Assembly (NCBI GenBank): GCA_963924555.1 | Contig: OZ004598.1 | Coordinates: 3,682,501 to 3,746,500, forward strand | DNA: 64,000 bases | Origin: Crambe crambe | Taxonomy: Eukaryota > Porifera > Demospongiae > Poecilosclerida > Crambeidae | Reading direction: 5' to 3' | Shown: positions 12,766-61,402 of the stretch, one piece after another | How positions within the stretch are numbered: the stretch's first letter is position 1 | How the letters are laid out: the number at the start of each line of letters is the position of its first letter | Notes under the pieces: model-generated | The model's database searches: none | The model's input: the letters and a program-made list of their open reading frames with translations, nothing else | What the model was told of the DNA's origin: nothing | Made by a program: the position numbers and the translations under genes

Positions 12766-13157
12766 CCTGTAATAAATTATTATTGTGACTGTTTAGTACC
12801 AGTAGTCCAGTAGAGATGTTTATTCATATTAGGTTGGAAATTTGGCAGAGTTTATAAATTTGGGAATTGAAATTGAATTGAGCTGTCAATAATTTAAATA
12901 GTTAGAGTTTTTATCCGGCTAGTTTAGCTAGAGTCCTGACACAAATCTCACATATTATGATAGCTAGGCTGCTTTTGGTTTTCAGTAAGATACAGCAATT
13001 CAAACTCCTAGATTGTGCAGCTAGCCTACATAATACCAGCTATCTCCCCCTGGGTCCTCCTCTCTCTCTCTCTCTCTCCCCCTCCCCCCCCCCCCCCTCC
13101 CTTCTCTCCCTCCTCAAGAATTAGGCACTGACTTCAAATTCCTGCTACAAATATCAT
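12766..13157. other. Upstream region of ZNFX1-like gene with a CT/C tract
   Basis: The first 290 bp are AT-rich and carry no convincing ORF. A pyrimidine tract, (CT)n followed by a run of C, occupies 13054-13113. This is the likely promoter side of the minus-strand ZNFX1-like gene. I see no defined promoter element. Confidence 0.4.
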
Positions 13158-34264: not shown

Positions 34265-37200
34265 CTACCTAATGTAGTTGTAATTTTGTGTCTCAGGCTG
34301 AGAATAGATGCACATGTAAATGTCCTGGGTGAAGCGACGAACGAGCTCTGGAAGTTCACTCGGAGAGGTCTCAAGGATACGAGAGGGATCTCCATTCTCT
34401 GGATAAACCCATTCATTGAGCTCACTGCTACAGTCAACCACTTTAGGGATGTTATATTCATCATCTATAGCAACATGAGATTGAAGTTAGCATACTATGA
34501 TCTAGGGATCCAGCTATAGACTAGATGCAGTAAAGATTTTCGAGAAATACTTCACCATTGGAAATATACTATGTAGCTAGCTTCAAATACTTATGGAGTA
34601 CTGAGCATTCTATGTATGTGTTGCTTGCTATTAAGCCTGAAGTCCACTACACCTATAAGCTTCTTTCTGATCATAGACAATATTATGTAGAAAACTCTCT
34701 CTGATGCATATAATGAACTTACAGACTCTGCTGGCCATGCTATCAAAGAAAATCCATCGATTCCCTTGTCTTGTGAAGCAGACATAATGACTAGTTTCAA
34801 TGCATATCACAGATAAGAGCTCAAGACTGTCAAGATTCCCAATTTCTTTTCTCCACTCGATCCGATGATTGGATCGGGATGCTTCATTGTGCATTCTTTC
34901 GCAACAAATATCACAGAAAAAGCGACTATCCTCACCAAAGTCAGTGGTAGATGTTCTACACGTCCACACAGCATCAGATGCTTTACAGATATAACATAAA
35001 CCTGCAAGTAAAATAATGTAGTATTATAGCCATGCAACCCAACATGTCAATGATGATATCATGCATCATGCATGAAGGGAAATATCTGGAGTTAGCAAGC
35101 TAGATATAGTAGTAATTAACTACTATCTTTGGAGGATACCTAGCTATTACATCAAGACAATTAACTGTTATATTTAGAGGCCTATTAATGTATACTCTAT
35201 TATTATGAAGACAACTATATGTCTGGAGGCTAAACTCTATTACATTTAAATGTATACTATAATTATTGCATGTAGCTACTAATAATGGAGGCTTGTATAC
35301 TCCATTATAGATGACTCACGAGAGGACTGAGAATCTACGTTTTTCGAAATGTTCAATGTTTTGGATGGAAGTATTTTCTGAAACGTTTTAAAGTGTCTTC
35401 CAAATCGTGGCACCAGAATCAAGAGTTTGGATGGGATCTGCATGTCCAGTCATCAGACAGAATGATACAATAGCATAGCATAACAAGAATGATCTTAGAT
35501 TTCATACTCCATGCATGGACATTTGCATACGGTAAACTGTGGTAATTTTGAATAGGCATGAGCTCTGGACGTTTCAAATCTGTGGGGTCTAAGTTGGATA
35601 AAATTATAGAGCCCATAAGCCTCAGGTTTTAAGCATTCTAACCATCGTATGCCTTTTGGACATGTTTCAAATTAGATTCATATGCACTGAAAAAATATTA
35701 TAGCAAGAAGACTTATAAGAAGCGGTAAAGAAGGTACTTCTGCTGTTCAATAAAATTGAGGCACAATACAGAATAGCCCAGATGATTGCTTAGCCCCTAC
35801 TACAATAACAGAAATTTTTGCAGCTATGTTAGCCTTCCATGCATCTTGTTGAAGAGCTGGTATGCATGAACATATATACCTCAGTGAAAGAAATTTGTTG
35901 TTCACGAAACATTTTATTCAGCAGGTCACCAACTGATGGTAGCAGCATTGACTCATCCATCTCCAAGAACAACTGTATAAAGAATTCCTTCTCTATACCA
36001 TAAGGACGTCTGCAAGCATAAAAGTATAGATAAAGATACAATAAAATGAATTTTTGGTGACGTAGGAATTTATAATGAGGTACATAATTCATACTTTCAT
36101 GGAGCCACAATAATGTTTGTCAGAATAGTGAACTTTCTCTCTTAACTTACGTACTTGATACTAATGAAAGGAGGTATTTGAAGAGAATGCTTAAATAGCA
36201 CATTGAGAAATTCCTCAGGATCTGTACAAAATAGAGAGATCACCACTGTATTACTGTAGTACAATGAGAGACTTGACTTTAGATACAGTGAAAAGTCTCC
36301 TTCATTGGGAGGTTATTATTTCGATTGTGTCAAAGGTTATAACTATGAGTTAAATGACTATGATTCCTCAGGATCCGTACAAAATAGAGAGATTACCACC
36401 ATTTTAGAGGCAAAACTGTACTACTGTAGTACAATGAGAGACTTGACTTTAGATACATTGAAAAGTCTCCTTCGTTGGGAGGTTATTATTTCTATTGTGT
36501 CAAACTCAGGATCCGTACAAATAGAGAGATCACCACCATTTTAGAGGCAAAACTGTACTACTGTAGTACAATGAGATATTTGACTTTAGATACATTGAAA
36601 AGTCTCCTTCGTTGGGAGGTTATTATTTCTATTGTGTCAAACTCAGGATCCGTACAAATAGAGAGATCACCACCATTTTAGAGGCAAAACTGTACTACTG
36701 TAGTACGATGAGATACTTGACTTTAGATACATTGAAAAGTCTCCTTCGTTGGGAGGTTATTATTTCATTGTGTCAAAGGTTATAACTATGAGTTAAATGA
36801 TAGCCATACCCTTTTCGTCCTGTGTGATTCCATTGAGCTGTTCAAGGTGTTGCAAACGTTCTCGCAACTTCATAACTGATTCATATCTCACAATGCCATG
36901 CCTAAAAAAATAACAACAGTTAGTGCCAATTGTATACAGGTATTGTGATTTACAGTCTAAGAGGATTGATGATGTGTTTCCATAAGATCTGGCCTGTAAG
37001 ATCAGTGAATTTTTGGAGAAAAATCTTGTCAAAGTCATTACTTAGAGCAAACAACCCAAATACAGTGGCATCCAGGTAGCAGGAATTGAAGTGACCTTGA
37101 ATTCCTTTCCTCTCTCCGATATACTTTTCAATGTTAGTATCAATAATGGTTTCTTCTATAGCGTGTTCTGTGATGACATCACTGAGTGCTATATACAGAT

Positions 37201-37476
37201 GAGATTAATTATAACAGAAGCTATAGATGTATATACAATACTTACGATTTCCATCTGTAGATGTTTCCATGATATACCTCTCATCTGGCATTAGCTGTGC
37301 AAAAGGATGGTACCAACCCCTACCAGGAGGACAGCTAAAGTGCCTTTCGTTAGTGGATGCATACGCTCCATCTGTGCCACCTTTCACCGAGTCATCCTAT
37401 ACAGTTGTGCACATTGTAGCCAGCAAATATTAAATCTAGCTAGCTAGCTAAGTTTTAGTTAATGTTGCTGTAGTGG

Positions 37477-37516
<40 letters not shown>

Positions 37517-39627
37517 CGTTACTGCTGCTGCTGCTCCTGTTGCTCACTTTTATTTACTTGCTAGAAGAGATCAGCTTATGTCAGAATAGAGAAGTAGCTA
37601 ATTTTGGTTGCATAGCACTAAATTTCAACTAATTTCAAGCAACGCTGTAATGGTCAGGAAAATGGCTGGGATCAAACTCTATTTTTTTCCTGGATAATTA
37701 TAGTTGTCTTTGTGTCAGACTGTTAGAATTGTCCCTGCCTACATGTACTTATGTACACAGGTCTATTTACCATTTCAATTCCAGCTATCAGCTCCTCAAT
37801 GTCAGACACATATCCTATCCACTTGATAACTCCGTACTTTGTGCAATTTTTGGCTTTGCGGGATGGTATCTCTAGCTGTACAAGAGAGCCAACTTCCAGG
37901 TCCTGGATTATTAGAAATTACAGTTGAATCATAAAGCTTCTGGACCATGCATGCATTAGGTTTCACATGCATGGATACTTAGTATCAACACTGTAAAAAT
38001 ATATGTGTAAAATAAAAAACAATCTTATCTTGAGTTGCAAATTGAAACTCTGATAACCTACAAATGTTTTTACACATTTGTGTTTACAGTGAAGTATCCA
38101 AATAGATGTTAGCTGTATAATATACTATATCCAAAGATGTTCTATACATAAATTATATGTATCCAAAAGATCAAAAGAATAGGAGGGGGTTACATAGTAC
38201 ATTATCAGCTATTAATTTTTATGTGGACACAATCATAACAAGTTGCTAGTGGATGTGCACTTAGATACCGATATCTGCATACAAAGCATCCATATCTTAG
38301 TGGATGGCCTAAGGGTGCAGAGTATCCCCACTAGAGCCCCACCCCAGAATGTTTAGGATATGAAAATACTATGAGAATACATTGTTAAACAGAAAGTCTT
38401 CAAGGTTTCTGGTCTCTCCATGCAATAGTTAACAGCAACTCCAATAAACTTTTAGATGAAACCCTGATTATGTGGCTATGGCTAACTAATATAGATTCTA
38501 ATTTCGAGATTAGAAGGAGAAAGTGTGGACCACCATAAAAGAACACACAACTCACATGCTTGGCTGGACATGGCCAAGAGGCAGGAGCTAAAGAGGAACA
38601 CTGTTTTGGAAGTATACCAGCCACTTCAGTGGCCTGGGGAGCACTGGATGATATCCTATCAAAGGACACAAAGAGACCACACCCATCACTGCATTCAAAG
38701 TATCGCTGATCATTGTAAGTGCCATCTGTGGTCCCATAGTGTCCAGATCGATAATTATCATCCTATGATAGAAAGAATAAAGAAATGTTTGGGCAAATGG
38801 ACTGGGAAACATGCTAGCTACCAATGTATGTTTGAATTCTAATAATATTATCATGTGTTGCGTAAACAGACTGGTTTTCTGTGGAACTTCTCTTAGTGAA
38901 CTCTCTATAGCTATTATAATTATTCAGGAGGCAATACTCCCTATTAAGGACAATCTCTCTATTAAGGAAAATACATAAGGATAAAAATAGCTGGTTCCCT
39001 ATTATGGAGGTATCACTGCTATAGCCCAATACCTGCATGTATACAGCTATGTGTACTTTTACTTCTTCAATTTGAGAGTTAGTAGCTAGTGGCCTGCCAG
39101 TGCGAGTTTATCTTAACAGGTTCAGTGCTTTTAGCTACAACCTGTGGTATTATAGCTAAGTGAGATTGACTCACTAAAAGTTCTACTCCAAATACTGTGC
39201 CCTGATGATCCTTAACCTCTCCTTTATATCGAATAATAGCCCTGGCATGTTCTGGCTCAGTGTGGTCATCTGCAAATATCTTGACATACACAATCGAACC
39301 TGGTTTCAGAGAAACACCCCAATCCAATAAATTATAGACACTCATTACATCCACAGGGGAATTGATTGCTTCCAAAATCTCAAATTCTTGTCGATTCAGT
39401 GGTGCTATGCCATCCAACTTGCAAGACAGAGAAATACTAGGATCATGGTACAACTGATAGTCTGAGCTTGGTTTTTCCTTGGCTGTGATCAATTCCCCCC
39501 TTGAAATATACTCATCTGATGTAGACGAATATCTAAATAGTCTATTTAAGCAACCACCATGGTTCAACCTCAGTCCAGTGACATTAGTTAGTAGAATATA
39601 ACCAACAGCATCGTTTGAAGTCTCCAT
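34265..39627 (-). CDS. CYLD: CYLD-type deubiquitinase, 687 aa, catalytic residues intact
   Basis: Eleven exons in transcript order: 39627-39175, 38762-38556, 37902-37771, 37396-37246, 37188-36954, 36901-36810, 36221-36155, 36009-35880, 35437-35320, 35001-34723, 34464-34265. The phases agree throughout. N-terminal CAP-Gly-like module, about residues 100-175 (ending GTTDGTYN...RYF). Second CAP-Gly, 221-310 (LEVGSLVQ, YGVIKWIG, GGTDGAY). Then the CYLD USP domain with GIQGHFNSCYLD (Cys351), PRFG, a CxxC...CDICC B-box-like zinc finger, ETSHYV (His600) and FFDSM (Asp615). CYLD cleaves Met1- and Lys63-linked ubiquitin chains and damps NF-kB and necroptotic signalling. Compared with the paralogue at 44944, it lacks the middle CAP-Gly and the long linker. 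The acceptor of exon 7 lies in a tandem repeat. Confidence 0.93.
36214..36780. repeat. Minisatellite, four units of 137-153 bp, containing a copied splice acceptor
   Basis: Units start CTCAGGATC at 36214, 36367, 36505 and 36642 and share CTGTACTACTGTAGTACAATG and AAAAGTCTCCTTC modules. The first unit overlaps the acceptor of exon 7 of the minus-strand CYLD. On that strand it reads TTTGTACAG before the exon, whereas the other units read GTACGG and so lack the AG. Confidence 0.9.
37478..37533. repeat. (GTT)n/(GCT)n microsatellite
   Basis: A trinucleotide run in the intron between exons 3 and 4 of the minus-strand CYLD gene. Confidence 0.9.
37988..38091. mobile_element. Palindromic MITE related to 28577-28701
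   Basis: ACACTGTAAAAATATATGTG opens and CACATTTGTGTTTACAGTG closes. The core GAGTTGCA...AACTCTGATAAC also matches the 28.6-kb copy. It lies in the intron before exon 3 of the minus-strand CYLD. Confidence 0.7.
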
Positions 39628-44943: not shown

Positions 44944-47900
44944 ATGGAGTCGTCAACAGTTGGGTATATCTTACTGAAAGATTCACGGGGAACGAGCAAA
45001 TCTATTGTCAAGAAATATCTTCCTGGAGCTAATCCATACACAGAAGTGATTGTTTTGCGAGGAGAACTCGTTACTGTGAAACAAAGCTCTAGTTCAGAGT
45101 CAAAGTGCAACTATCAGTTACGTCGTGATCCAAGTGTTTATGTGTACAGTGCTATTGAAGACATAGCACCTCTAAACCAGCAAGAGTTTCTACTGATGGA
45201 AGGTATTGAAAAGCCCGCTGACAGAATGGAAGCTTTTAACAATGGAAAATTGGACTGGGGTATTAATCTGAAACAAGGTTTTGAAGTATATGTCACCTTG
45301 AATTCACCTAATGCACAGTATACAACAGCTGTTGTGCATTTTAAAGGTGAAGTTGGAAATGTTCCAGGTATTCAATTTGGAGTGGAACTTCTTGTGAGTA
45401 TTTATTTATTCAGGATAAAAAATATAAAAATTTGGGGGCCTGTTCCCCCCCCCCCCCCTAAAAAACTCTGCTCTAATTTTGTTCCCAAAAACAGTCATTG
45501 AGAGTTTTTCAATGTTAGTATCATGTATTGATCCATCCATAGGTATCAGAGAGTGCGCTAGCACTCTCTAAGTAGGGATGGCGGGTCAAAGGTCATAAGA
45601 CTTTCTCTTCTACCCTTACTCTACAGGTTCTCAGAAGGCTACAGTGAATTATTACATCTACAAAGAAGAGAGGAGAATGTTCAAAAACCAAAAATTCATT
45701 CGCTAACATAAGAAAAAAAAGAGTTCTAAAATTGACTTTTGTTCTTTTTCTTTATAATAAATATAAGATCGACCTACCGACTTACTGGAAAATTCTGCTT
45801 TGGCCATCTGTTAGAGCGGCACCTAGAGGCTGATCTTTTGCTATTAGTTTTGACTAAAGCGCTACTTCACAAATCAGTGATATCGATAGCACTCGGCTAA
45901 TCTTTCTATGCCATTTTGAAGCGCACGTCGGTAGGGGGTGGAGCGTATGGGCGGGGCCACGTATAAGTGCTACAATGAGTTCAGTAGCTAAGCTAGGTCT
46001 TCAGTTTAATCGTTCAGCTAGCTATTTATTCTTATCTGATGATCTTCCTGACACTCTTTGCTGCATTGCAGTACAAATGCTCATTATTATAGCCAGTACT
46101 TGGCTGTAGTGTAGTCAGCTCACTTCATGCCATGCACATGTCATATACATTGCTGTTGCTGTAAACTTTTATATTAAATAATAAACAAAACTTAAATAAA
46201 TTCTTCCAGAGACTGTATGTGCCTACAAAAGAAAAAAGATAGGTTTAGAACTATGTAGAGCTGGCTTTGTACTGTAGCCTCATGTAAAATATTAATAATC
46301 ACTGCATACTCTCAGTTCAAGTGACGATCAATACTTCCACCCTCAATTCTTCACTTATACAAACTTACTTTCAACTTCAAGCACTAAAAAAAGGATAGAA
46401 ACAAGTGAGCGCAAAAAATTTCCTCTAAATAAAAAGTTAAGTAGGGATAGCCTAAAATCTAACTGGGCTGTACAATGTACTGCAGCCTCGTATGAAAACA
46501 ATCCCTACTTTTACAATGGCCCATAGCTAACTATAGGCAGTGAATGTAAATGTAGGGATTGTTTTCATATGAGGCTGCAGTACATTGTACAGCCCAATTA
46601 GATTTTAGGCTATCCCTACATAACTTTTTATTTAGAGGAAATTTTTTGCGCTCACTTGTGTAGATAGATGTGAATGTGCACTTGCTGGGTTGTAGATAGA
46701 AGTATTATCTTCTAGTCTGGCGGCACCAACCCTTTTTGGTGGGTGGGGTTTGATGACTCTATTTATGTGCAGCCAAATCAGATTGCAGTATTCCACTTAT
46801 TGCATTCTTCTAGCCTACTACTGTCAATGTCTAGTTTCTTATTTCCATTCGCGATATCCTCTCCACATAGAAGAGTATGACGCCTACTTTCTAAGAATTC
46901 TTCTGCCTCCAACCACAAGAACACTTAAAATGAAAAGCGCAAAGTTTTATTCTAAATCCCTGCTGCACAAGTACATAGCTGATGCTAGAGTCACCAGACC
47001 TTTTCCCTCCACCGCCCACCAAAAAGGAAAGGGTACCACCAGACTAGGTATCTTCGTGATTTATTTTCGTGTTTATTTACATTTAGGAAGGACGTTATAG
47101 GACTGGCAAGTATGGTACTACTGATGGTACCTTCCAAAATCACAGATACTTTAAGTGCCCGGACAACTGTGGTTTGTTTGTGTCATTAGCTCGGCTATCA
47201 CAGCAAGCTTTTGTGGCTGCCTCATCTGGTAATCCCTCGGTGAATAGTAGCTCGACAAGGGAAGCATCCAAGCCTAGAGGAACCAAGTCCTATGCAGCTG
47301 CAGCAGGTAATGATAGAAGAGAGACTGAGTCTCCTGCAGATAATACTCGTTCCAAGTCTACAATAAAGGAAACCAGTGTGGATGCACGTGTACCTTCAGC
47401 TCCAGCTCCATCAGAGTTTCATATTGGTCAACGTGTGAAATTCTATGATAAGACTGGTAAACTCTACCAAGGAGAAGTATTCTGGCTTGGAAGAGGAACA
47501 CCTCATGGAATACCAGAATGTAACGTGGCAGGAGTCAAAACTGTGAGTTTAATGATGCATATAATAGACCTACTGGGAAATTTTCGTTAGATAATACTTC
47601 ATGTTTACAATTTTCATGTTAAAGCTTACTTGTAATTAGCTTTTTTAAGGTAATTAAATTTCATATGATTAATTTTCGTTGCTGGACATGACCACGAAAA
47701 TAAATCAATATCGAAAATTTCCCAATCTATGGAAGCATCAAAATTAGAACACTGGTATATATATTTTTTACTACTTCACGAAAAATCAGTATAGCTACTG
47801 AGCTTTCAGTCAAACTTTTGGTTATTGCATGCCATAGGAATGATGAAGAAAAGTGCAGTACCATCTCCATCACATTCTGTCCATCAGTGCTTGACATGTC

Positions 47901-50900
47901 TAAACTTATCAGTAGTAGCTATTCCTATTTTTGCATATACCAGGTAGTGGGGTAAGGGTTATAGGGAGATAGATTCCTCCTTACACAAATAATTACTTCA
48001 TAGGATAACATTGTCTTCAGAATCGACTTTGAGCACACCATTCCACCAGTATCTGTAGTATCTTCTGCTCCAAAAAATCATTTACTTTTTCTCCCTGAAT
48101 CTCTCATGGATCATGCCGATGATAAAAAACGTTCTACTACTTCTGAGACTGAAAATGTTGAGGAGATGAAGGAAAATGAGGCACTGATGAAGCAGCAAGA
48201 GAAACTTATGGCAGAAGTAGAGAAATCTAAGAGAGCTACTGATAAAAAGCATCCTACTTCTCAAAATTCAGAATTAGAGAAGTTGAGAGCAGATAGAATT
48301 AAAATGGGACAGCAAGTAAGCATGGTGGATGATGCAGCGAAAATCAAGAGAGCTAAAGATTTGCAACAACAAAGTAGCTTTGATGAAGCTAATAATCAAG
48401 TTTATCAGCACCATCAAGACCGTCAACGCCGTGAAGAAAATCGTATTTATGATGAGATTTCAGATCTTCGCCCTGACCCTCAGGGCTGGAAGAGTCATCC
48501 TGATGCAGAAAATCGTCAGGCACTTCATGGAGCTAATTATGAGAACAGATTTCCACAAGGTCCTTCATACCAACGATGCCATGATGGTATTGATAATCAC
48601 CGTCCGAAACCACAGCAACCCATGCCAAGAGCTGCTCCTCCTCAACAGCCGTATGATAAGCATGCTGATTCAGCCAGCCCAAGAGATTCTGCATCAACTT
48701 ATCAATCTTATGATCATGATGCTAATCTTGCACATACCATGCAAGATCCTTCAACTAATACACACAAGGATGAAAATATCGTGGCAAAAACTGGTGGTGG
48801 TGGTGGTGGCGGCTTGTATAACCACAACTTGGAAGTCGGTTCTCTCGTACAGATGAAATCAAATGACACTAATCCAAGATATGGCACAATTAAATGGATA
48901 GGGAACATGGATAATGTCCAGGGAACCATTGCTGGCATAGAACTGGTAAATCAATTACAATGTTTTCATGGTTAAGAGTAGCTTTCATAGGTTCCAAGCA
49001 CATGTACATAGTATTTAGCTCCCCTATACTAAGTTCTAACATCTGTAGTGCTTGAATAGACAGTATAATAATTATCCAATTTCGAACACAGCACTCGACA
49101 TAATACTAGGGACTATTGTACATTATTTTTTATATTACACATTCACTTTGTTATGCTAAATAACAGGATGAAGAAATGGATGGCTGCACTGATGGAACTT
49201 TTGAACGAACTGGTAAGAAATTTTTCAATTGCCCTGAGCGTAAGGGTATCTACTATCCATTGGAAAGCCTGAAACCAGATGAAAGATATGCTACTGAAAT
49301 GGCTGTGGATGGAAACCGTAAGAATTCTAAACAGTATGTTGTGTTTCCTATTACTTCTGCATGTGTGTACTAATTTAGCACTGAGAAACGTCACTGAAGA
49401 AGTCGAACAAAATGTTTCTAACTTCATCATTGACCAATATCTTGGTGAAGGGAAGGGTATACAAGGTGACCAAAACTCCTGCTACTTGGATGCAACTGTA
49501 TTTGGACTGTTTGCTCTCAGTATTGATTTCGATGACATGTTTCTCCAGGGATCCCAAGATCCCAACAATACTATAGGCCAAATCCTATGGAAGAATATCG
49601 TCAATCCTCTGAGGATGTAAGGAACTTGATACCCTATTGATTCATCCTTAATTTTTTTTTTTTTTTTTTGGATGGTACAGGCATGGAGTGGTGAAATTTG
49701 AATCGGTTATGAAATTACGAAAAGAATTAGAATCTTTGGGGAGAATGAAGGGAATCACTAAAGATGAAAAAGGTCTGTGTATTGTCAATCTGAAAAAAAA
49801 TTTTTTTTTTATTTCTTGATACCTAGATCCTGAAGAATTCCTGAATATGATGTTCAAGCATACTTTGCACACACAGCCTTTCATAAGTATCAGGTATATA
49901 CTTCTAAATAGTGCCCGCCCACTAGCATCATTACATTGTTTTAAATAGTGCCCGCTATCCTTCTTATGTTATGCTGTCTACATAATATCATACTGCCACA
50001 GGCGCCCCTTTGGTGTGGAGCAGGAGTATTTTGTGCAGCTTTTCTTTGAGATGGATGAATCTATGAGTGTACCAACAATTAGTGATTTATTGAAGAGAAT
50101 GTTCCATGAGCAGCAAATTTCCTTCACTGAAGTATGTCTGTAAAACCTGCAGCATTTAAGTGATACAAAAAAAACCTAGCTCCCTGTGGGTTATCCAGAA
50201 GGTGTGCGTTATTAAGACATTTACCTGTATATGGCTATTAGTGAGAGTGTCGGTAAAGCAGCAAGAGGGCATGCATCTTCCTGAAATCTTAATGTAATGT
50301 ACTAAATTGGCTGAGCATTATGGTAGGTTCTGTCTGCACATGTCTGGATACTGCAGTAAGTAAACTTGGTAACCATTTATATTACTAGTTTCATGCCCTC
50401 TTGCTACTTTGTGGCTTGTTACACCCTTGCTATTACAGTGAAACCTCCGAATAATGGGCACACTTGGGACCCAACCTTTTGTAGAAATACTTTAGATAGT
50501 CCTTTGTTGAGAGGTTTGTCCTCCTTCTGGAGTGTCCTTTATTGATGTTATGTATAGGTACCATCCAAGCTGCTTATTCAAGTGCCACGATTTGGGAAGA
50601 AGTTCAAGACTTTTCAAAAAATTATTCCGTCAGAACTCCTGAATGTTGCCGATGTTGTGGACCTTGAGATTCCATGTAGGTTTAGATATGTTTCTATAGC
50701 CACAAAACCATCATAGTTTGTGTATTTCATAGATATATGCCATATATGTGGGGAAAAAGCTCTAAAACTTTGTGGTGACTGTATGAGTGACTTCCAATCA
50801 AGAGATCCTGTTGTGCACTTTTGTGAAGATTGTTGTGAAAAGGTGCATCAACATCCAAATCGGAAAGATCATCATCATGGGTGGTGTGAGGAAATGGACA

Positions 50901-51842
50901 ACTTGCAGCAAGTATCCAACCTTGAGCTCCTGTCTGTCATTTGCATTGAGACTAGCCATTATGTCTGCTTCACAAGACGTGATAATCGATGGATTTTCTT
51001 TGACAGCATGGCCAACAGAGTCTGTAAGCAGTTTATTAGCTGCATGAGGTTGCTATAGTTTAGAACATACAGTGCTTCCAGCTAAAAGAGTCCATTTTTG
51101 CCACTAATTTAAATTTTAGTTGTCTTCTAGAGTCAAAGCTAATTACACAAGACTGGTCTATAATAAACTCCTCCTATAGCCACTCCCCCAATTTATTTCT
51201 AATTATGATGGAAAGAATATGTTCCCTAAAACCTAAAACAATGAAGAAATATGGTATGGTTCTTAACTGTCATTCCTAAAATATTTTTATTACTTCGAAG
51301 TTTACATCATTACTCAAGATTTTTATTAGCTCTAACTTGGTGCCAACAAGGATTTCATTTAGCAAAAGCCTTCTTGCAAAACATGGTTTCTTAACTCCCC
51401 AAAGAAACAGTTCCTGTCTGTTTACTCTTTAAGCTATAATAGCTACATGTCGATCTGATTGGTCAAACCTTGAACATAATAATTATTAATAAGCTTATAT
51501 TAGGGCTCAATAATTAATTTAGAAAGTGTGAGGACATTTCGTCAGACTAATCACAAAAATGTCACCCTTGCTCTCAGGGCATACTTTTTTATGGTTGCTA
51601 TGGCTATGCTCTAAATAATAGTTTAATTAAAGGCATTTCTATCTCATTTGCTAGATGACAAGTATAATATCCCAAAAGTGAACGAGTGTACTGCTGACCT
51701 TAATGAATGGGTGTATCCAAAGGAGGGAGATATTAATCGTCTCCTCAAGACTCCACCTCGTGAACTTCCTGAACTTGTTCGTCGTTTCACCCAGGACATT
51801 TATATGTGTGTGTATGTTCAGCCTGACTTAGGAATGTATTGA
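44944..51842 (+). CDS. CYLD: CYLD-type deubiquitinase, 1040 aa, three CAP-Gly modules, catalytic residues intact
   Basis: Eleven exons: 44944-45393, 47087-47542, 48004-48945, 49167-49317, 49379-49616, 49681-49772, 49827-49893, 50002-50131, 50558-50675, 50733-51023, 51655-51842, giving 1041 codons in consistent phase. Modules: CAP-Gly 1 about residues 99-190 (GKYGTTDGTF), CAP-Gly 2 about 267-330 (IGQRVKFYDK), a coiled-coil/Gln-rich linker with YDEISDLRPDPQGW, and CAP-Gly 3 about 580-660 (LEVGSLVQM, YGTIKWIG, GCTDGTF). The USP domain follows with GIQGDQNSCYLD (Cys701), a CHICG...FCEDCC zinc finger, ETSHYV (His957) and FFDSM (Asp972). Human CYLD has 956 aa and the same order, so this is the better match to the vertebrate gene. 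In vertebrates CAP-Gly 3 binds NEMO. The first intron carries a repeat of about 1 kb. Confidence 0.94.
45541..46690. repeat. Composite repeat with hairpin end, in intron 1 of the plus-strand CYLD
   Basis: It begins with the small palindrome AGAGAGTGCGCTAGCACTCTCT and continues through GTAGGGATGGCGGGTC and GGCACCTAGAGGCTGATC. It ends with a palindrome of two arms of about 110 bp (46387-46665, arms GCGCAAAAAATTTCC and GTAGGGATAGCC). Most of it recurs in inverse orientation at 58930-60726. There is no coding capacity. Confidence 0.7.
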
Positions 51843-52216
51843 GCAAACTTGTTTATCCAGGCTTTAATTTTTGCCTCACTTTTTTTGTGATTAAAAAAAA
51901 AATTTTTTTTAATGTTCATTGTGAATATCAAGGTGACTAGAACTCCAACTACTTGATGTTTGAACTACACTATTACTCTCAGCATTGATTTCATTGACAA
52001 GATCCCACATCCTCTGGCAATGTAAGATTGTGTAGGCATGGAGTGGTTTAAGTTAGTCTGTAAAATTAAGAGTTGGAATCAAGTTGGTGGCTAATATGAT
52101 GTTACGTAGCTTTTCCGTTATTTTGGTCTACAATGCTGGAGAACTATTGGAGAAGAAGAATGAACTCTATACATAGCTAAAACCATAAAAGATAGGAAAA
52201 AAGACCAGGAACAAGT

Positions 52217-52505
52217 AAGGGAAAAAGCATTTCGTGAAATGAAAAAAGATGTAGGGATGACCACTGCTCAAAAAAGTAAGGAAACAAGAAGGATGAAAAT
52301 GGGATCAATCTTTGTTCTGTATATCCAGCCAACAATCCCTACATATACGTACATTACCTGAAGCTACCCGACGTATATGTAGGGATTGTTGGCTGGATAT
52401 ACAGAACAAAGATTGATCCCATTTCCATCCTTCTTGTTTCCTTACTTTTTTGAGCAGTGGTCATCCCTACATCTTTTTTCATTTCACGAAATGCTTTTTC
52501 CCTTA
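52217..52505. mobile_element. Long-hairpin MITE, about 290 bp
   Basis: Arms of about 130 bp run from AAGGGAAAAAGCATTTCG to the complement ending at 52505, around a short centre near 52360-52378. The arms are nearly identical, which suggests a recent copy. It is inserted in the CYLD pseudogene block. A single arm is found at 31196-31375. Confidence 0.8.
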
Positions 52506-53026
52506 TAATCATAGTCTCAAGCCTGCATTGATCAAAAATTAATTAATCATAGCTACTCATGGACCAGAAGTGGATCGTGTCGTGCATACCTCTTGCCACT
52601 GAGAAGCGGCACGAGGGTATGCAATATTTTGAGCTCTTAATGTAATGTAAGATGTTATAGTAGGCTCTATTCACACATATCAGATACTGCAATAAAACTT
52701 AGTGTTTTGACATCTACACTAGTTCCATGCCCTTTTGCCACTTATGCTCTTGCTATTACAGTGGAGGGGTTGTATGTTACACAAAGGGTCCTTTTGTTGA
52801 GAGGTTTGTCCTCTTTTGGAGCGTCTTTTGTTGGAGGCTTCACTGTACTATGTATAGGTACCATCCACAAGCTGCTTATTCAAGTCCCATGATTTGGGGG
52901 AAAATTATTCCTTTAGAACTCCTGAATGTTGCCACTGTTGTGGACCTTGAGATTCCATGTAGGTTAAATGTCATAAAATTAAACCATCAGTTGTTTATGT
53001 ATTTCATTGATTAATTATAGCTATGT

Positions 53027-53051
53027 GGGGGGGGGGGGGGGGGGGGGGGGG
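53027..53051. repeat. Homopolymer of 25 G
   Basis: Pure G run within the exon-10 relic of the CYLD pseudogene. The length may be uncertain because such runs assemble poorly. Confidence 0.9.
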
Positions 53052-53889
53052 AAGCTGCAAGAATTTGTGATGACTGTACGACCTATCAAGAGATCCTGTC
53101 ATCCACTTTTGTAAAGATTGCTGTGAAAAGGTGCATGAACACCCAAATTGGAAAGTCCATCGTCATGGGTGGTGTGAGGAAATGGACAAAGGTAATCGAG
53201 TAGCTATCCAAACTTGAGCTCCTGTCTGTCATTTGTATTGAGACTAACCACTATGTCTGCTTCACAAGATATTATAATCAATGGATTTTCTTTGACAACA
53301 TGGCTAACAGAGTCTGTAAGCAGTTTACTAGGTTGCTATTTCGTATTTAGTGATTGGTCAGTTAGAGGATATGACTTGTGTAGTGTCCTCACTAAACTTA
53401 CTGTAAAATTTGAACATATTTAGCTATTAAGCTTACATTAGCTCTCAGGGCATAGTTTTTATGGTGAGATTGTATATTGCTATGGCTATGTAGACACCTT
53501 GACCAATAAAGACGGCAACGAGTGTGGCTTGCAATTCATTTTCTATCTTACTTGCTGTATAACATCCCAAAAGTGGAAGAGTGTACAGCTGACCTCAATG
53601 AATGGGTTGTATCCAAAGGATGGAGATATCTCTCGTCTCCTCAAGACATCGCCTCGTGAACTTCCTGAACTTGTTCGTCGTTTCACCCAGGACATTTATA
53701 TGTGTGTGTATGTTCAGCCTGATGTAGAAATGTATTGAGCTAACTTGTTTATCCAGGGTTTAATTTTTGCCTCATTTTTTTGTGGTTAATTTAATGTTCA
53801 TTGTGGTGCATGGAAATAGCTATATACAAGGTGACCAGAATTCCAACTACTTAGCTGTTTGGACTATCTCTAGCTCTCATCATCTAAGT

Positions 53890-54890: not shown

Positions 54891-54985
54891 GCGCGTGCGC
54901 GCATAGGCGCAGTGGCCTAGCCTAGCGCCTATGGCCTAGCGCGCGCCTAGCGCCTAGCGCCTGACGGCGGCGACCCTTTACCTCC
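54891..54985. repeat. GC-rich tract with GCGCCTAGC tandem units
   Basis: Short units of GCGCCTAG and GGCCTAGC repeat several times, followed by GGCGGCGACC. The composition is far from the AT-rich surroundings. It lies 45-140 bp upstream of the kinase ATG and may be a CpG-rich promoter or a tandem expansion. Confidence 0.6.
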
Positions 54986-55030
54986 TTTTTCTTGGGGGTG
55001 GGGAAAAGGAGGCGGTGCCGCCAGACTACC

Positions 55031-57113
55031 ATGGGTGGGCAAGCTAGCTCTATGGATTCAGCTGCAGAAATTTTGCGCTGCGGTACTGTTGAAATCTATA
55101 CTGGGGAGAAACTGGGCGAGGGAGCCTATGGCAGGGTCTGCAGGGCCAAATATGGTCAGCTTCCTTGCGCTGTCAAACTTCTTCACAATCACCTGTTCTA
55201 TTCAGAGGTTTTCACTAAGAAATTCGAGGAAGAGTGTGAATTTCTCAGCACCATCAGACATCCGAATATTGTTCAGTATCTAGACACTATAAAAATTCCT
55301 AACTCAACAAACCCTGCTCTCCTGATGGAGCTAATGGATGAAAGCCTCACCAAATTCCTGGAACGGTCTAATGGCCCCCTCCCTTACTATTCCCAAGTCA
55401 ACATCTGCTATGATGTAGCACTTGCCCTAGCCTACCTCCATAACAAAGGCATCATCCATAGGGATCTCTCGGGCAACAACGTCTTACTGATTGATGAAGG
55501 CAGCAGGGCAAAAGTGACTGACTTCGGGATGTCTAAACTGGTAGATATGAATCCACGTGCGACTGCCAAGACCCTCACTAAAGTTCCAGGAACGTCAGTC
55601 TACATGCCTCCAGAAGCACTGATAGAAAAGCCGAGCTATTCCAACAAACTAGATTGTTTCTCCCATGGAGTGCTCACCATTCACATTATAACAAGGAACT
55701 TTCCTGACCCTGGTGATGCATACAAGTCTGTGGGTAACAGTAGATATCCTACTGGACAAATATCAGTGCAATTTCCAGAAAGTGAGCGTCGTAAGAAGGA
55801 TATCGATCTGATTAAGCCCGATCATCCCCTCCGCCCTATTGCATTGCAATGCATTAAAAACAGGAAAAAAAAGAGACCATCATCTGATGAACTGTGTGGT
55901 CAGCTAGCTTCTTTAAAGAAGGGTGAAAGGTACACACGCAGTAAAGATCAGAACAACAATCGAATAAAAGAATTACAGCTAGATCTTATTAAAAAAGAGC
56001 AGGAAATCCAATCACAAAAAGAAGAATTGAAGGAGGCAATGAAAAAGAAGGAAGAGGCTATCAAGATGAAAGATGAAGAAATAAATGAAAAAAACCAAAT
56101 CATTCAAAAGCAAGCACGCATGGATCAGTATGGCATGCTACACCATGATGACAGTCCTATTGCAAGCTTTACTATGCATACCACATCCATGCCGAAAACT
56201 ATGCCAATTCAACGAACATTCAAGTATGAACATGAAAGATATGCTACCGAAATGGCTTTGGATGGAAACCGTAAGAGTTCTATATAGTGTGTTGTATTTC
56301 CTATTACTTTCTTTTACACATATGTACCATTTTTAGCACTGAGAGATGTCATTGAAGAAGTCCCAGAAAATGTTTCTAATATCATCGTTGACAAATATCT
56401 TGGTGATGGGAAGGGTATACAAGGTGACCAGAACTCCGGCTACTTGGATGCAACTGTATTTGGACTGTTCGCTCTCAGTATTGATTTTGACAACATGTTT
56501 CTCCAGGGATCCCAAGATCCCAACAATATTATAGGCCAAATCCTATGGAAGAATATTGTCAATCCTTTGAGGATGTAAGAAGCCCTACTGATTTCATCTT
56601 TATATATATGTATATATATTTTTGGGTGGTACAGGCATGGAGTGGTGAAATTTGAATCGGTTATGAAATTACGAAAGGAATTAGAATCTTTAGGGAGAAT
56701 GAAGGGAATCACTAAAGATGAAAAAGGTCTGTGCGCATATAAATTAACAAATACTTTTATTTCTTAACGATACCTAGATCCTGAAGAATTCCTGAATATA
56801 ATGTTCAAGCACACTTTGCACACAGAACCTTTCATAAGTATCAGGTACATAATTATTACAGTTGCATTGTTCTAAATAATGCCCATCATTAGCATCGTGA
56901 ACTCAAATCTTGCAGCTAGTCTATATAATGCAGTGCCTGCCATGCTGTCTATATCTTTATATCTGCAGGCGTCCCTTTGGTGTGGAACAGGAGTATTTCA
57001 TGCAGCTTTTCCTTTTCTTTGAGATGGATGAGTCGATCGTACCAACAATTAATGACTTACTGATGAGAATGTTCCATGAGCAGCAAATTTCCTTTACTGA
57101 AGTATGTATGTAA
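55031..57113 (+). CDS. Chimeric TKL-like kinase fused to catalytically dead CYLD domain
   Basis: The start is ATG 55031 in good context; upstream in-frame codons lack another ATG. MGGQASS fits an N-myristoylation signal (Gly2, Ser6). Kinase domain about residues 22-297: GEGAYGRV (29-36), Lys49, HRDLSGNN (143-150), DFG (164-166), MPPE (192-195), all key residues present. A coiled coil follows (about 310-362). Residues 401-413 (HERYATEMALDGN) are the end of CYLD exon 4, and the exon ends at 56270 in the same phase. CYLD-like exons follow: 56337-56574, 56635-56726, 56778-56844, 56969-57101. The catalytic motif reads NSGYLD, with Gly448 (codon 56438-56440) replacing Cys. Exons for the zinc finger, catalytic His and Asp are absent downstream. 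Reading past 57101 stops at 57113 (593 aa). Confidence 0.8.
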
Positions 57114-57290
57114 AACCTAGTTAGTGCTAGTAGCCACATGCAGTATTAAAGTGAAAAATTTTTTTTAGCTGAGCCAGCATATGACTCTGTCTGCAAATGT
57201 CTTGATATGGCAATAAGCTATTATTTTGCCATCCACACTAGTTCTATGCTCTATTGCTATTTTGCAGTTTGATATGCCCTTGCTATTACA

Positions 57291-57375
57291 GTGGAACCTC
57301 CGAATAAGGGACACACTTGGGACCCAACCTTTTGTTCTTTGTAGAGAGGTTGTCCTCTTTGGAGGCTACCGTACA
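57291..57375. repeat. GAACCTCC-type MITE copy
   Basis: CAGTGGAACCTCCGAATAAG opens it and GGAGGCTACCGTACAG closes it. The same insertion is found at the equivalent intron position of the intact CYLD (50437-50545), so it predates the gene duplication. Confidence 0.7.
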
Positions 57376-57469
57376 GCGGGATAATTTCGGTGGGGATAAA
57401 ATTTCAGTAATTTCGGTAATCAGTCTATCTATCAAAATTTTTCTATCAAATTTTTTTAAAGTTTAGTTG

Positions 57470-58080
57470 TTCTTTTCATTTGTACATTCAACGTTAACTA
57501 CAGCAGCGCATCTGTTGGAAGATTGTTCCACATTGATGTTGTCAACAGTAAAAGACATATTGGAAGCATTTTGTTTTCAAATGTGGTTGACAGAACTGGT
57601 TAAGCAGACAACCATCCCTATAAATTTTACGAACAAAGACATCACTTGGGAAATAAAGCAGACCTGTATGTATTTTGAACAGAGTGCATTGCTTCAGAAA
57701 CATTCTTCGGTTTCTCAGAGTAGGCAGTCCAGCTTTGTCTAGGAGATCATTATAGCCACAATCCCACTGACGCAGACACATCCTCAATGCAAACTTCTGG
57801 ACCTATTCTAGTTTTTCAATATTATTGACAAGGTGAGGGTCCCATACTTGAGCAGCATATTCCAGGTGAGGACGATATACAACTGTAGAAGACCCTCATT
57901 ATCCATATTCCCATAAAACCTCCAGTAGAGTAGGCCAATTAGTTTTCTAGCCTTTATTCACATGCAATCAACATGCTGCAACCATGTGAGATCAGATGTT
58001 AATGGTACACCCAGGTACTTGAATGAAGTAACATGCTGTAGACTTAGATTGTTTAAGCTGGTTCCACCTTAGGAACTTAC
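57470..58080 (-). mobile_element. LINE fragment, end of reverse transcriptase
   Basis: The minus strand contains FALRMCLRQWDCGYNDLL and GLPTLRNRRMFLKQCTLFK. Upstream, in broken frames, it reads FKYLGVPLTSDLTW, KARKLIGLLYWRFYG and VRPHLEYAAQVWDPHL. These are typical of the thumb/C-terminal part of a LINE RT, of a different lineage from the one at 53890. It is truncated at both ends, with internal stops. It lies where the fusion gene has lost its zinc-finger exons. Confidence 0.75.
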
Positions 58081-58241
58081 CTAACCTTCCTTCTTAGCTA
58101 GATTCCAAAAAGTCGCCATGATCGCAAAGAGGGCTATACCTGAAAAAATGAAGGCCAAAAAATAGGCAATATAAATGTAATATAAGTGTAATGGAGTATA
58201 AATGCGGTAAATAGACTCATTTAAAAACCTTGTCCGAAATT

Positions 58242-58268
58242 CTTTTTTTTTTTTTTTTTTTTTTTTTT
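58242..58268. repeat. Homopolymer T run
   Basis: A T run of about 25 bp, non-coding. It could be the A-tail of a minus-strand insertion, but no body could be assigned. Confidence 0.6.
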
Positions 58269-58929
58269 CATTTGGCAGAAACTCCAAAAGTGTGGTATGT
58301 TCACTTCTATGATGTAAGAATAGATTGTTTTTTAAAAAATAGATGATGGGAGTGAAGTAGGAATAGTATCTTGTACTTGATGATGGGTAAGGGTCACTTC
58401 ACTAAGTTCACTCTCTTGCATGCAGTTATAATACATATTCCAGCTCGATTTTTGGGCCATACTGCTTCGATGCTGCAGTACTTGGTTTTCATAATGAAGC
58501 TGCAGCTATAATAGCATCCCTACTTCACATTTTTATTTCGAAGAAATTTTTTGCATTCACTTGTTTGCATTCTTTTTCTTTGTGATTATGAAAATTGATA
58601 GACACTAAAGGCTTCCTTGATTGAACTAATGATCAGTATTTCATTCTGTTCAGGGAGGAGAGTTTGAAGGATGATCATCTGCAGTGTAATGGAGTACTGA
58701 AAGGAGTGAACATTTTAAAAAGTGAACAGCATTAGCTAATTGTTACATATGTGATCACTGAAATAATTATTGAGATGGTACGTACGTCTTGCTTGAGGGA
58801 GGAGTATGGGGAGTTTATGCATTTGGTGTAGTGATCATAATAGTGGATGCCATCAAATGGCCACATCCTGTGCAGGTGTTATATGAGGAGAACTGCTATT
58901 AATTGCCCCACCCCTTTTATGAGGTAATA

Positions 58930-60726
58930 TCGCGAAGATTTTTTTCATACGAGGCTGCAGCACATTATAGATAGCCCAGCTAGATTTTAGGCTATCCCGA
59001 ATTAACCTTTTAATTTTTTACGCTCACTTGTTTCTATCCTTTTTCTTAGTGCTTGAAGTTGAATGAGGGAGGCTACAGTACAGTACTATACAAAGCCAGC
59101 TCTACATAAACCTCTTTTGTAGGTACATACAGTGTCTCTGGTTGAAGAATTTGTTTAGCTATTTAAGTTTTGTTGATATAAAACTTTACAGCAACAGCAA
59201 TGTAAATGACATGTACACGGCATGGTGAAGTGAGCTGACTACACTACAGCAAAGTACTGGCTATAATGCTACTATAGGATGAGCATCTGTACTGTAATTC
59301 AGCAAGGAGTGACTGGAACATCATCAGATAATGAATGAAGACCTTGGCTATAGCTAAACTTAAGCTTACGTGGCTCCGCCCATAAGCCCCGCCCCCTTCA
59401 AAATGGCGTAGAAAGATTAGCAGCTGTGTTCCGAGTGCTATCGAATAGTGAAGTAGAGCCTTAGTCAAAACCATAGATATAGTAGACACGGAACAGGATT
59501 GGAAACTGCCTACGTCATGTGACGTCACGCCCATTAAGCTAATACATTTCGCGCATGCTATCCGCGTTGTAACCATAGAAAATTTAGCCCTATTGTCGCA
59601 ATACATTTTCTGAGGAAGAGAGGTACAGACTTTGTGGGACTAGAGCTACGAGCGCAAGTGCTTTTCTAGCAATTTTATCCTATAGAAGTTTGGAAGGTAA
59701 AGTTTCTTACTGGAATAGACTGAAATTAAGAATGTAATAACTGTTTTTGGTGTAGGATATGTTGCTAAAGATTTTATAGGCCTACCAATTTGTGGGACTA
59801 GAACAGGACTCACATAAATTTAGAAGTCAAGTGTTTGGTATCTTTTAGTAGTATAATAGTTTGTCTATCGGATGATATATGTTATATTGATTCATAGCTG
59901 TTAGTTTTCTTTTAATGCAGTGTTAAACTATGGGTTAAATAGTTATTATTATTACATTTCTATTATTTATTTGCATTATCATGTTTTATTATCCACTCCA
60001 TGAAGCTCTCTGCACAAGAACGGGCATCTGTAGATGGTTGGAGAAGAAGACTAAACTCTTCATCTTTCAAAATTTGAGATACGAATCTCTCATAGATATG
60101 TACTATCTAGCTAGATCTAGTCTCATATCAAATTTTATTATTTTTATAAAAGCACAACATGGAAACACTCTAGTCCAGCTAATATTAAGCTACTAGACTA
60201 ATATCCGCTCTGATATCTTTTGCAGAACTCATTCTTAACTATTATGTGGTAACTATGCATTCATATCTCGCGCCAAAATTTCCCGGCAAACACGGATAGC
60301 ACGCGCATGGTAGTATTAAGTTTCCAATCCTGTTCCGTGTCTACTATCTATGGTCAAAACTAATAGCAAAAGATCAGCCTCTAGGTGCCGCTCTAACAGA
60401 TGGCCAAAGCAGAATTTTGATGACTATAGCCTGTAAGTCGGTACGTCGATCTTATTATTATTATTATCCTTATTATTATTATTATTATTATAAAGAAAAA
60501 GAACGAAAAGTCAATTTTAGAACTCGTTTTTTTCTTATGTTGGCGAATGAATTTTGGGCTTTTGAACATTCTCCTCTCTTCTTTGTAGATATAATAATTC
60601 ACTGTAGCCTTCTGAGAACCTGTAGAGTAAGGGTAGAAGAGAAAGAAGAGTTTTTAGTTTATACTGTCCTATGGACTTTGACCTGCCATCCCTACTTAGA
60701 GAGTGCTACCGCACTCTCTGATAGCT
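58930..60726. repeat. Inverse copy of the 45.5-kb composite repeat, split by a younger insertion
   Basis: Read in reverse, the flanks repeat the blocks of 45541-46450. At the right end are the GAGAGTGC..GCACTCTC palindrome and the GGCACCTAGAGGCTGATC complement. Further left are the CCGCCCATA, CAAAATGGCGTAGAAAGATTA and TAGTGCTTGAAGTTGAA blocks. The copy is interrupted at 59472-60352 by an element with a target duplication. Confidence 0.75.
59472..60352. mobile_element. hAT-like non-autonomous DNA transposon, 881 bp, 8-bp target duplication
   Basis: The terminal inverted repeat is about 35 bp (CATAGATATAGTAGACACGG at the left, continuing GAACAGGATTGGAAACT, with a 2-bp indel between ends). GTCAAAAC is duplicated at 59464-59471 and 60353-60360. 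The same GTTTTGAC occurs once at the empty site in the copy at 45541-46690. There is no transposase ORF. The 8-bp duplication points to hAT. Confidence 0.85.
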
Positions 60727-60766
60727 ATGTTCTTAAAAAGCATTTTCTATCTCACTTGCTATATAG

Positions 60767-61402
60767 ATGGCAAGTATAATATCCCAAAAGTGGAGGAGTG
60801 TACTGCTGACCTTAATGAGTGGGTGTATCCAAGGGATGGAGATATCTCTCGTCTCCTCAAGACATCGCCTCGTGAACTTCCTGAACTTGTTCGTCGTTTC
60901 ACCCAGGACATTCATATGTGTGTGTATGTTCAGCCTGATCTAGATCCTCACCCTGACCCTCAGAAGTGGAAGAATCATGCCCCTGTGGATGAGACAACAC
61001 TTAAAGTGGAGGAGACCGAGAGGCTCTTTCAAGAGGTACATATTATGTATGTACGTATGTGTAAATAGCAATGGTCAGCAACATGATCAATACTGGATCT
61101 TGTATGAAGCATAAAATTGCACATAAATAATAGTTAGACACTGAAACCTGTGTAAGTAAGTATGTGTGTATGTATGTATGTATGTGTCAGAGAGTGCAGT
61201 AGCACTCTCTATGTAGGGTTAATACGGAATGGGCATGGCTTCTCTCATTAGAACAATATAAACTAGACTCTCTGTATCTCTTCTATTCTTGCTACAGGCT
61301 CAACTAAACTTCTTACGTCTGGAAAACAATGCAGAAGATGATGATATGACCGCTCAAACTCTTCCAGAACAGCGTCAACGATTGGCACCAGCCACCACCT
61401 AA
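60767..61402 (+). CDS. CYLD last-exon copy with acidic tail plus terminal exon (partial gene or fusion-gene 3' end)
   Basis: Exon 60767-61035 matches CYLD exon 11 (KYNIPKVEECTADLNEW, RRFTQDIHMCVYVQP). It does not stop where the parent does but continues with DPHPDPQKW and an acidic stretch to a donor at 61036. Exon 61298-61402 adds AQLNFLRLENNAEDDDM and ends at TAA. The exon expects an incoming phase of 1, whereas the last good exon of the kinase fusion (57101) leaves phase 0, so a direct join would shift frame. An exon such as the lost exon 9 (118 nt) would have fitted. It is therefore either the 3' end of a decayed fusion gene or part of another transcript. The PHPDPQKW segment echoes RPDPQGWK in the linker of the intact CYLD. 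Confidence 0.5.

Follow-up and report, generated by a model that had tools for sequence, protein, structure and literature searches.

The closest described system to the genes treated here is CYLD itself. In the sections of PMC8511506 considered here, the second and third CAP-Gly domains of CYLD (CAP-Gly2 and CAP-Gly3) are reported to bind ubiquitin. Exchange of Leu475 to Pro or Arg abolishes ubiquitin binding by CAP-Gly3, and no ubiquitin binding was seen for the CAP-Gly domain of KIF13b, which carries Phe at the Leu475 position. According to the same sections, CAP-Gly3 binds NEMO as well, and the linker between CAP-Gly2 and CAP-Gly3 is a phospho-patch that is phosphorylated by IKKs (PMC8511506). 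Catalytically inactive CYLD rescued a defect of TNF signalling as an adaptor, as stated in the consulted part of PMC10919355, and the account of pseudo-deubiquitinases (pseudo-DUBs) given there names no kinase-bearing example. PMC5796713 shows CYLD homologues, among them one of the sponge Amphimedon; the figure legend labels their domains as RING, CAP-Gly and DUB, and no kinase is mentioned in the portion of this paper considered here. Likewise, no CYLD-kinase protein is named in the listed titles and abstract openings on CYLD, sponges, kinomes and pseudo-DUBs, a body of text to which most subscription papers do not belong.

We analysed a stretch of 64,000 nucleotides from the sponge Crambe crambe (assembly GCA_963924555.1, contig OZ004598.1, positions 3,682,501 to 3,746,500; hereafter the window). 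It contains a kinase exon joined to CYLD exons, here called gene C, and we compared this gene with three kinase-bearing CYLD gene models, K1 to K3, on the same contig. K1-K3 resemble CYLD in their CAP-Gly-containing N-terminal half, in CAP-Gly3, in a USP with B-box insertion and in the positions of His and Asp, and their exon order is that of CYLD-B, an intact CYLD of the same genome. They differ from CYLD in a kinase ahead of CAP-Gly3 and in Ser as nucleophile. Gene C differs from CYLD in having Gly at the nucleophile position, and it has neither CAP-Gly domains nor the latter half of the USP. With the pseudo-DUBs of the USP family, K1-K3 and gene C share a recognisable USP without nucleophile, whereas the kinase domain in the same protein sets them apart. 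We regard K1-K3 and gene C as variants of the known CYLD and not as a system of a new kind.

Gene C and its CYLD surroundings

Two CYLD genes with an intact NSCYLD motif lie upstream of gene C. CYLD-A (34280-39627, minus strand) was delimited by tblastn only and gave no match to e3a. CYLD-B (44944-51842, plus strand) is an 11-exon model of 1040 aa and the nearest relative of the gene C USP exons. Two stretches of CYLD-B exceed the Pfam CAP-Gly cut-off, and its USP matches human CYLD (2vhf) with 1.3e-76. Past e8 it comprises e9 and e10, which bring the zinc finger and the His and Asp that we take to be catalytic, and e11.

The open reading frame of gene C spans 54965-56287, with the first in-frame ATG at 55031, and a single exon (55031-56231, plus strand) covers the kinase domain and the coiled-coil tail of its family. 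The first-pass annotation had described a kinase with all key residues, and this holds: GEGAYGRV, AVKLL, HRDLSGNN, TDFGM, PPEAL and DCFSHG are kept, and Pfam Pkinase is matched with 1.2e-41. About 62 residues of the tail align with the coiled coils of paralogous kinases. In the annotation, moreover, the kinase frame continues unbroken into the final 13 codons of CYLD exon 4 and leads on to USP exons of matching phase, which we could reproduce. Identified by their match to CYLD-B, these codons (56232-56270, plus strand) follow in the same frame and end at a predicted GT donor at 56271 (GTAAGA); exon-4 end and donor together (56232-56309, 78 bases) are 91% identical to CYLD-B 49279-49356. The intron thereafter reads GTAAGAGT at the donor past 56270 and ATTTTTAG at the acceptor ahead of 56337, and it leads to the USP exons e5 (56337-56574), e6 (56635-56726), e7 (56778-56844) and e8 (56969-57101, donor at 57102), all on the plus strand. 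With splicing read from the sequence, all predicted introns are GT-AG and in phase, and 590 codons stay open; the 1240-base kinase exon and the four USP exons contain neither a stop nor a frameshift. The change from NSCYLD to NSGYLD was found as described, the nucleophile codon at 56438-56440 in e5 being GGC (Gly), while CYLD-B has TGC at 49480. At the level of the sequence, the kinase-CYLD join of gene C is confirmed as real.

The same annotation saw in gene C an arrangement of kinase, coiled coil and pseudo-deubiquitinase. Kinase, coiled coil and lost nucleophile stand, but the USP is present by half. In 57102-60764 of the window we found no credible copy of e9 or e10, which would bring the B-box/zinc finger and the presumed catalytic His and Asp: the best tblastn matches had E 0.99 (e9) and 3.8 (e10), and blastn returned only short pieces, the best of which (E 0.001) was the edge of an e11 copy. 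Read on beyond the donor of e8, the frame meets a stop immediately (FTEVCM*, ending at 57113). The copy of the last CYLD exon, e11 (60764-60943, plus strand, 92% to CYLD-B), is out of phase with e8, and since e8 ends on a codon boundary while e11 needs one preceding base, a direct in-frame join is impossible. Thus, with e9 and e10 missing, e11 out of phase and an immediate stop, gene C amounts to a kinase with its coiled coil and one half of a USP. Because the USP is only half present, the suggestion that gene C makes a decoy for ubiquitin chains appears doubtful.

Besides the e11 copy, further CYLD debris surrounds gene C. Fragment D (52901-53735, plus strand) retains part of e9, and its e10 and e11 are each split over two frames. 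Two decayed e5 relics (51929-52007 and 53823-53852, both plus strand) carry AAC at the Cys codon and have no kinase.

Some smaller features were observed at gene C and its flanks. Its N-terminus reads MGGQASS, which we take to resemble an N-myristoylation signal. ATTAAA at 57145, 32 bases past the read-through stop, is a possible poly(A) signal, a hexamer that is common by chance. By eye, the reading frame of the e11 copy at 60764 extends into a stretch resembling e3, and it may splice to a further short exon that ends with TAA near 61402; if so spliced, 60764-61402 would represent a last exon of CYLD that has acquired a new C-terminus.

Kinase-bearing CYLD models elsewhere on the contig

A genome search with the C-terminal half of CYLD-B gave 42 matches with E up to 0.01. 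All but one are located on C21, the contig of the window, and the remaining one is weak (E 0.0035). The 41 matches on C21 comprise the cluster in the window, a fragment near C21:3779.8k and a cluster at C21:5.014-5.054 Mb. The search for related kinases yielded 101 scored matches out of 511 first-look candidates; four of these 101 lie on C21, and every one of the four stands beside CYLD exons.

The distant cluster holds K1-K3, three tandem models (C21:5014443-5053733) 1.3 Mb away from the window. K1 (C21:5014443-5021824) has 13 exons and 1288 aa, K2 (C21:5031400-5038788) 12 exons and 1210 aa, and K3 (C21:5048182-5053733) 12 exons and 1261 aa; each is open from ATG to stop, and every intron is GT-AG. 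In all three models kinase and upstream CYLD sequence share one open exon, the donor of which is in phase to the CAP-Gly3 exon, and the USP frame stays open over seven exons. The kinase of K2 and K3 is inserted in the linker after the second CAP-Gly region, ahead of CAP-Gly3, this second region being placed by position and not detected by Pfam. Both the first and the third CAP-Gly of K3 are above the Pfam cut-off. Upstream of its kinase, K1 also carries a CAP-Gly3 of the B-like type together with exon 4. The kinase exons of K1-K3 stop soon after the kinase domain, without a coiled coil. NSSCLD replaces NSCYLD throughout (3/3), which puts Ser at the nucleophile position. Judged from these models, K1-K3 repeat an architecture similar to that of gene C: a kinase lies within CYLD, and Ser takes the position of the nucleophile.

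The USP of K3 matches human CYLD (2vhf) end to end (8.3e-50, query residues 21-364); such whole-domain homology is not given for gene C, where it covers e5-e8 only. The His, Asp and zinc Cys positions are kept in K3 (NNHYVCF, WIFFDSM), and K1 and K2 show the same motifs. A hairpin of the K3 USP is shortened at the human segment rfgkdfklfkk, as it is in the other K USPs. In the CAP-Gly3 of the K proteins, aligned to 1ixd, 7owc and 7owd, the position of human Leu475, numbered by setting the start of the 7owd fragment to 467, is occupied by Phe, and by Leu in CYLD-B. The lost hairpin and this Phe would speak against full retention of ubiquitin binding in the K proteins. K1-K3 are better candidates than gene C for the function that the first-pass annotation had in mind; its finding, incomplete in gene C itself, points to these more convincing genes nearby.

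Within the K cluster, a partial CYLD copy was observed between K1 and K2 (L050 6470-6865 and 8165-8389), with an in-frame stop in e1, a truncated e2 and no kinase seen. An ORF with WD40 repeats (Pfam) lies downstream of K3 (L051 6789 onward), and by eye a similar sequence follows K2 (L053 4753-6063), so that the WD40 ORF seems co-duplicated with K2 and K3.

Origin of the joins and loss of the nucleophile

Glycine loop, Lys, HRD and DFG are kept in the kinases of gene C and K1-K3 alike (4/4), and the kinases match both PF00069 and PF07714. The best PDB match is CTR1 (1.9e-23), followed by an EGFR entry and TAK1 entries; CTR1 and TAK1 we take to be TKL kinases. In related kinases elsewhere in the genome, a single open frame covers both the kinase and a coiled coil. 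Over the loci L010 to L038 of this free-standing family the kinase domain is 61-67% identical, and the kinase exon is likewise intronless. Gene C has the coiled coil in common with the family but then continues with CYLD exons, whereas the kinase of K1-K3 sits inside CYLD and lacks the coiled coil.

A kinase tree of 31 rows, the subset of the 101 scored matches with retrieved loci, groups gene C with K1-K3 (99/91), gene C forming a long branch. Placement of gene C with L048, L010 or L012 gave p-AU values of 0.077, 0.115 and 0.052, none of which is rejected. The joins themselves are of different layout, since the kinase leads to the exon-4 tail in gene C and to the CAP-Gly3 exon in K1-K3. Therefore, we favour two joins that would have used related kinases. 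A single kinase insertion in the ancestor of CYLD-B, gene C and K1-K3 would need a clean loss in CYLD-B, and we rejected it because the layout of CYLD-B is uninterrupted and the gene C USP exons are B-like.

The nucleophile codon is TGC in CYLD-B, GGC in gene C and AGC in K1-K3. In a tree of e5-e8 (CYLD-A, CYLD-B, gene C and K1-K3; 6 rows, 176 columns), CYLD-B and gene C are sisters (95/93), and K1-K3 split off with 100/100. Since the USP exons of gene C group with CYLD-B and apart from K1-K3, the Cys was lost at least twice. As far as can be read from these exons, there are at least two Cys losses among the copies that still read open, both of them kinase-linked; the loss of the Cys in the two decayed relics without kinase tempers the weight of this. 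A scan of bacterial and archaeal contigs with an e5 pattern gave 51 pattern matches, none of them confirmed, which says little because of the bacterial and archaeal nature of the collection.

Other members of the kinase family were observed next to further domains. Kelch repeats lie downstream of the kinase at L055 (1474-4627; Pfam) and L054 (1589-4124; by eye), and a Cul7-type domain at L056 (1148-3558; Pfam); read from the sequence of these three loci, the kinase exon looks as if it were swapping C-terminal partners. At L057 (820-2229; G000:C13:3886500-3891500) a 469-residue ORF contains a CAP-Gly match and after it, by eye, a coiled coil and a kinase domain, apparently a different CAP-Gly-kinase fusion in the same genome.

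Constraint, possible function and rival readings

Between CYLD-B and gene C, dN/dS over 187 codons is 0.20 (NG86), 0.29 (YN00) or 0.32 (ML), and the aligned bases differ by 7.1% in exons and by 32.6% in introns. Synonymous changes account for 19 of 34 single-difference codons (P = 0.0004, 5000 neutral simulations). Polarised with K1-K3 and CYLD-A, the e5-e8 changes comprise 12 synonymous and 12 non-synonymous ones on the gene C branch, Cys to Gly among the latter, and 6 of each kind on the CYLD-B branch, with 2 undecided between the branches. For the kinase of gene C, private changes were scored at sites invariant in 12 other family members, K1-K3 included; 12 of 35 are synonymous and 23 non-synonymous, compared to an expected synonymous share of 0.065-0.082 (0.074). 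Over much of its history, each part of gene C was under constraint, which may predate the loss of e9-e10.

A rival reading takes gene C for a pseudogene, its kinase exon recombined onto a CYLD-B fragment amid CYLD debris and the joined protein without function. The missing e9-e10 and the out-of-phase e11 copy fit such an origin, as do fragment D, the two e5 relics and the stray e11 nearby, and half of the 24 polarised e5-e8 changes on its branch are non-synonymous, the loss of the Cys included. On the other hand, a kinase exon of 1240 bases and four USP exons free of stops and frameshifts are not expected from it, nor are the low exon divergence compared to the introns and the synonymous excess in e5-e8 and on the kinase branch, although all of the latter may predate the loss of e9-e10. 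We regard the pseudogene as a serious possibility that falls a little short of an even chance.

Among the K models, constraint is clearest on the kinase. Its dN/dS in the three pairs is 0.19-0.23 (NG86) or 0.31-0.38 (ML), and in each pair the observed synonymous share was reached in 0 of 2000 neutral simulations. For the USP exons e5-e9 the values are 0.35-0.43 (NG86) and 0.51-0.70 (ML), with P 0.002, 0.034 and 0.041, for CAP-Gly3 plus e4 P is 0.024, 0.068 and 0.198, and for the linker ahead of the kinase 0.008, 0/2000 and 0.61. In the same three pairs e10-e11 are indistinguishable from neutral (P 0.19, 0.77 and 0.33). Thus the kinase domains of K1-K3 are clearly under purifying selection by these codon comparisons, and the CYLD part seems maintained as well, less clearly than the kinase. 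One might ask if K1-K3 are kinases on a microtubule- or NEMO-type adaptor, with the USP an inert leftover that reads no ubiquitin. The absence of detectable constraint on e10-e11, the lost hairpin and Phe in place of Leu475 in CAP-Gly3 would agree with this, but a USP frame open over seven exons in three of three models, the synonymous excess in e5-e9 and the kept zinc Cys, His and Asp positions would not, and we consider it conceivable yet less likely than not. That kinase and CYLD exons belong to separate transcription units and are in frame by accident is very improbable: the gene C kinase exon could indeed end in the intron, at the stop at 56287, but in each of K1-K3 a single open exon holds both upstream CYLD sequence and the kinase, and its donor continues in phase to CAP-Gly3.

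We lean, with some caution, towards K1-K3 being kinases on a non-cutting CYLD scaffold and gene C a separate, decaying or transitional fusion. Anchored by the CAP-Gly domains and the non-cleaving USP, the kinase of K1-K3 would be brought to receptor complexes, microtubules or Lys63/Met1 ubiquitin chains; there it could phosphorylate neighbours and at the same time shield the chains from real CYLD. Since the scaffold no longer cuts chains, its product would attach phosphate at places where CYLD takes ubiquitin off, and K1-K3 would act as kinase effectors and CYLD antagonists instead of deubiquitinases. Gene C, if expressed, would yield a kinase that ends in a short tail derived from CYLD. One might go further and speculate that CYLD was turned into a chain-reading, non-cutting kinase at least twice: nucleophile loss together with gain of a kinase of the same family would then reflect selection for a ubiquitin-guided, CYLD-antagonistic kinase. 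This we hold to be unlikely. What makes the genes worth attention is a kinase built into the CYLD linker together with the loss of the cutting residue. Provided that they are expressed, K1-K3 would offer natural and testable cases of a deubiquitinase turned kinase scaffold, and they would show that an insertion and a point change can rewire ubiquitin erasers into signal writers.

In the remainder of the window, two foldback elements were observed, one between CYLD-B and fragment D (52216-52350 and 52371-52505, arms 99% complementary, 20-base spacer) and one further upstream (46401-46515 and 46545-46659, arms 97% complementary and 29 bases apart). On the minus strand, a single ORF at 7300-12792 encodes 1830 residues and contains ZNFX1, helicase and RZ zinc-finger domains.
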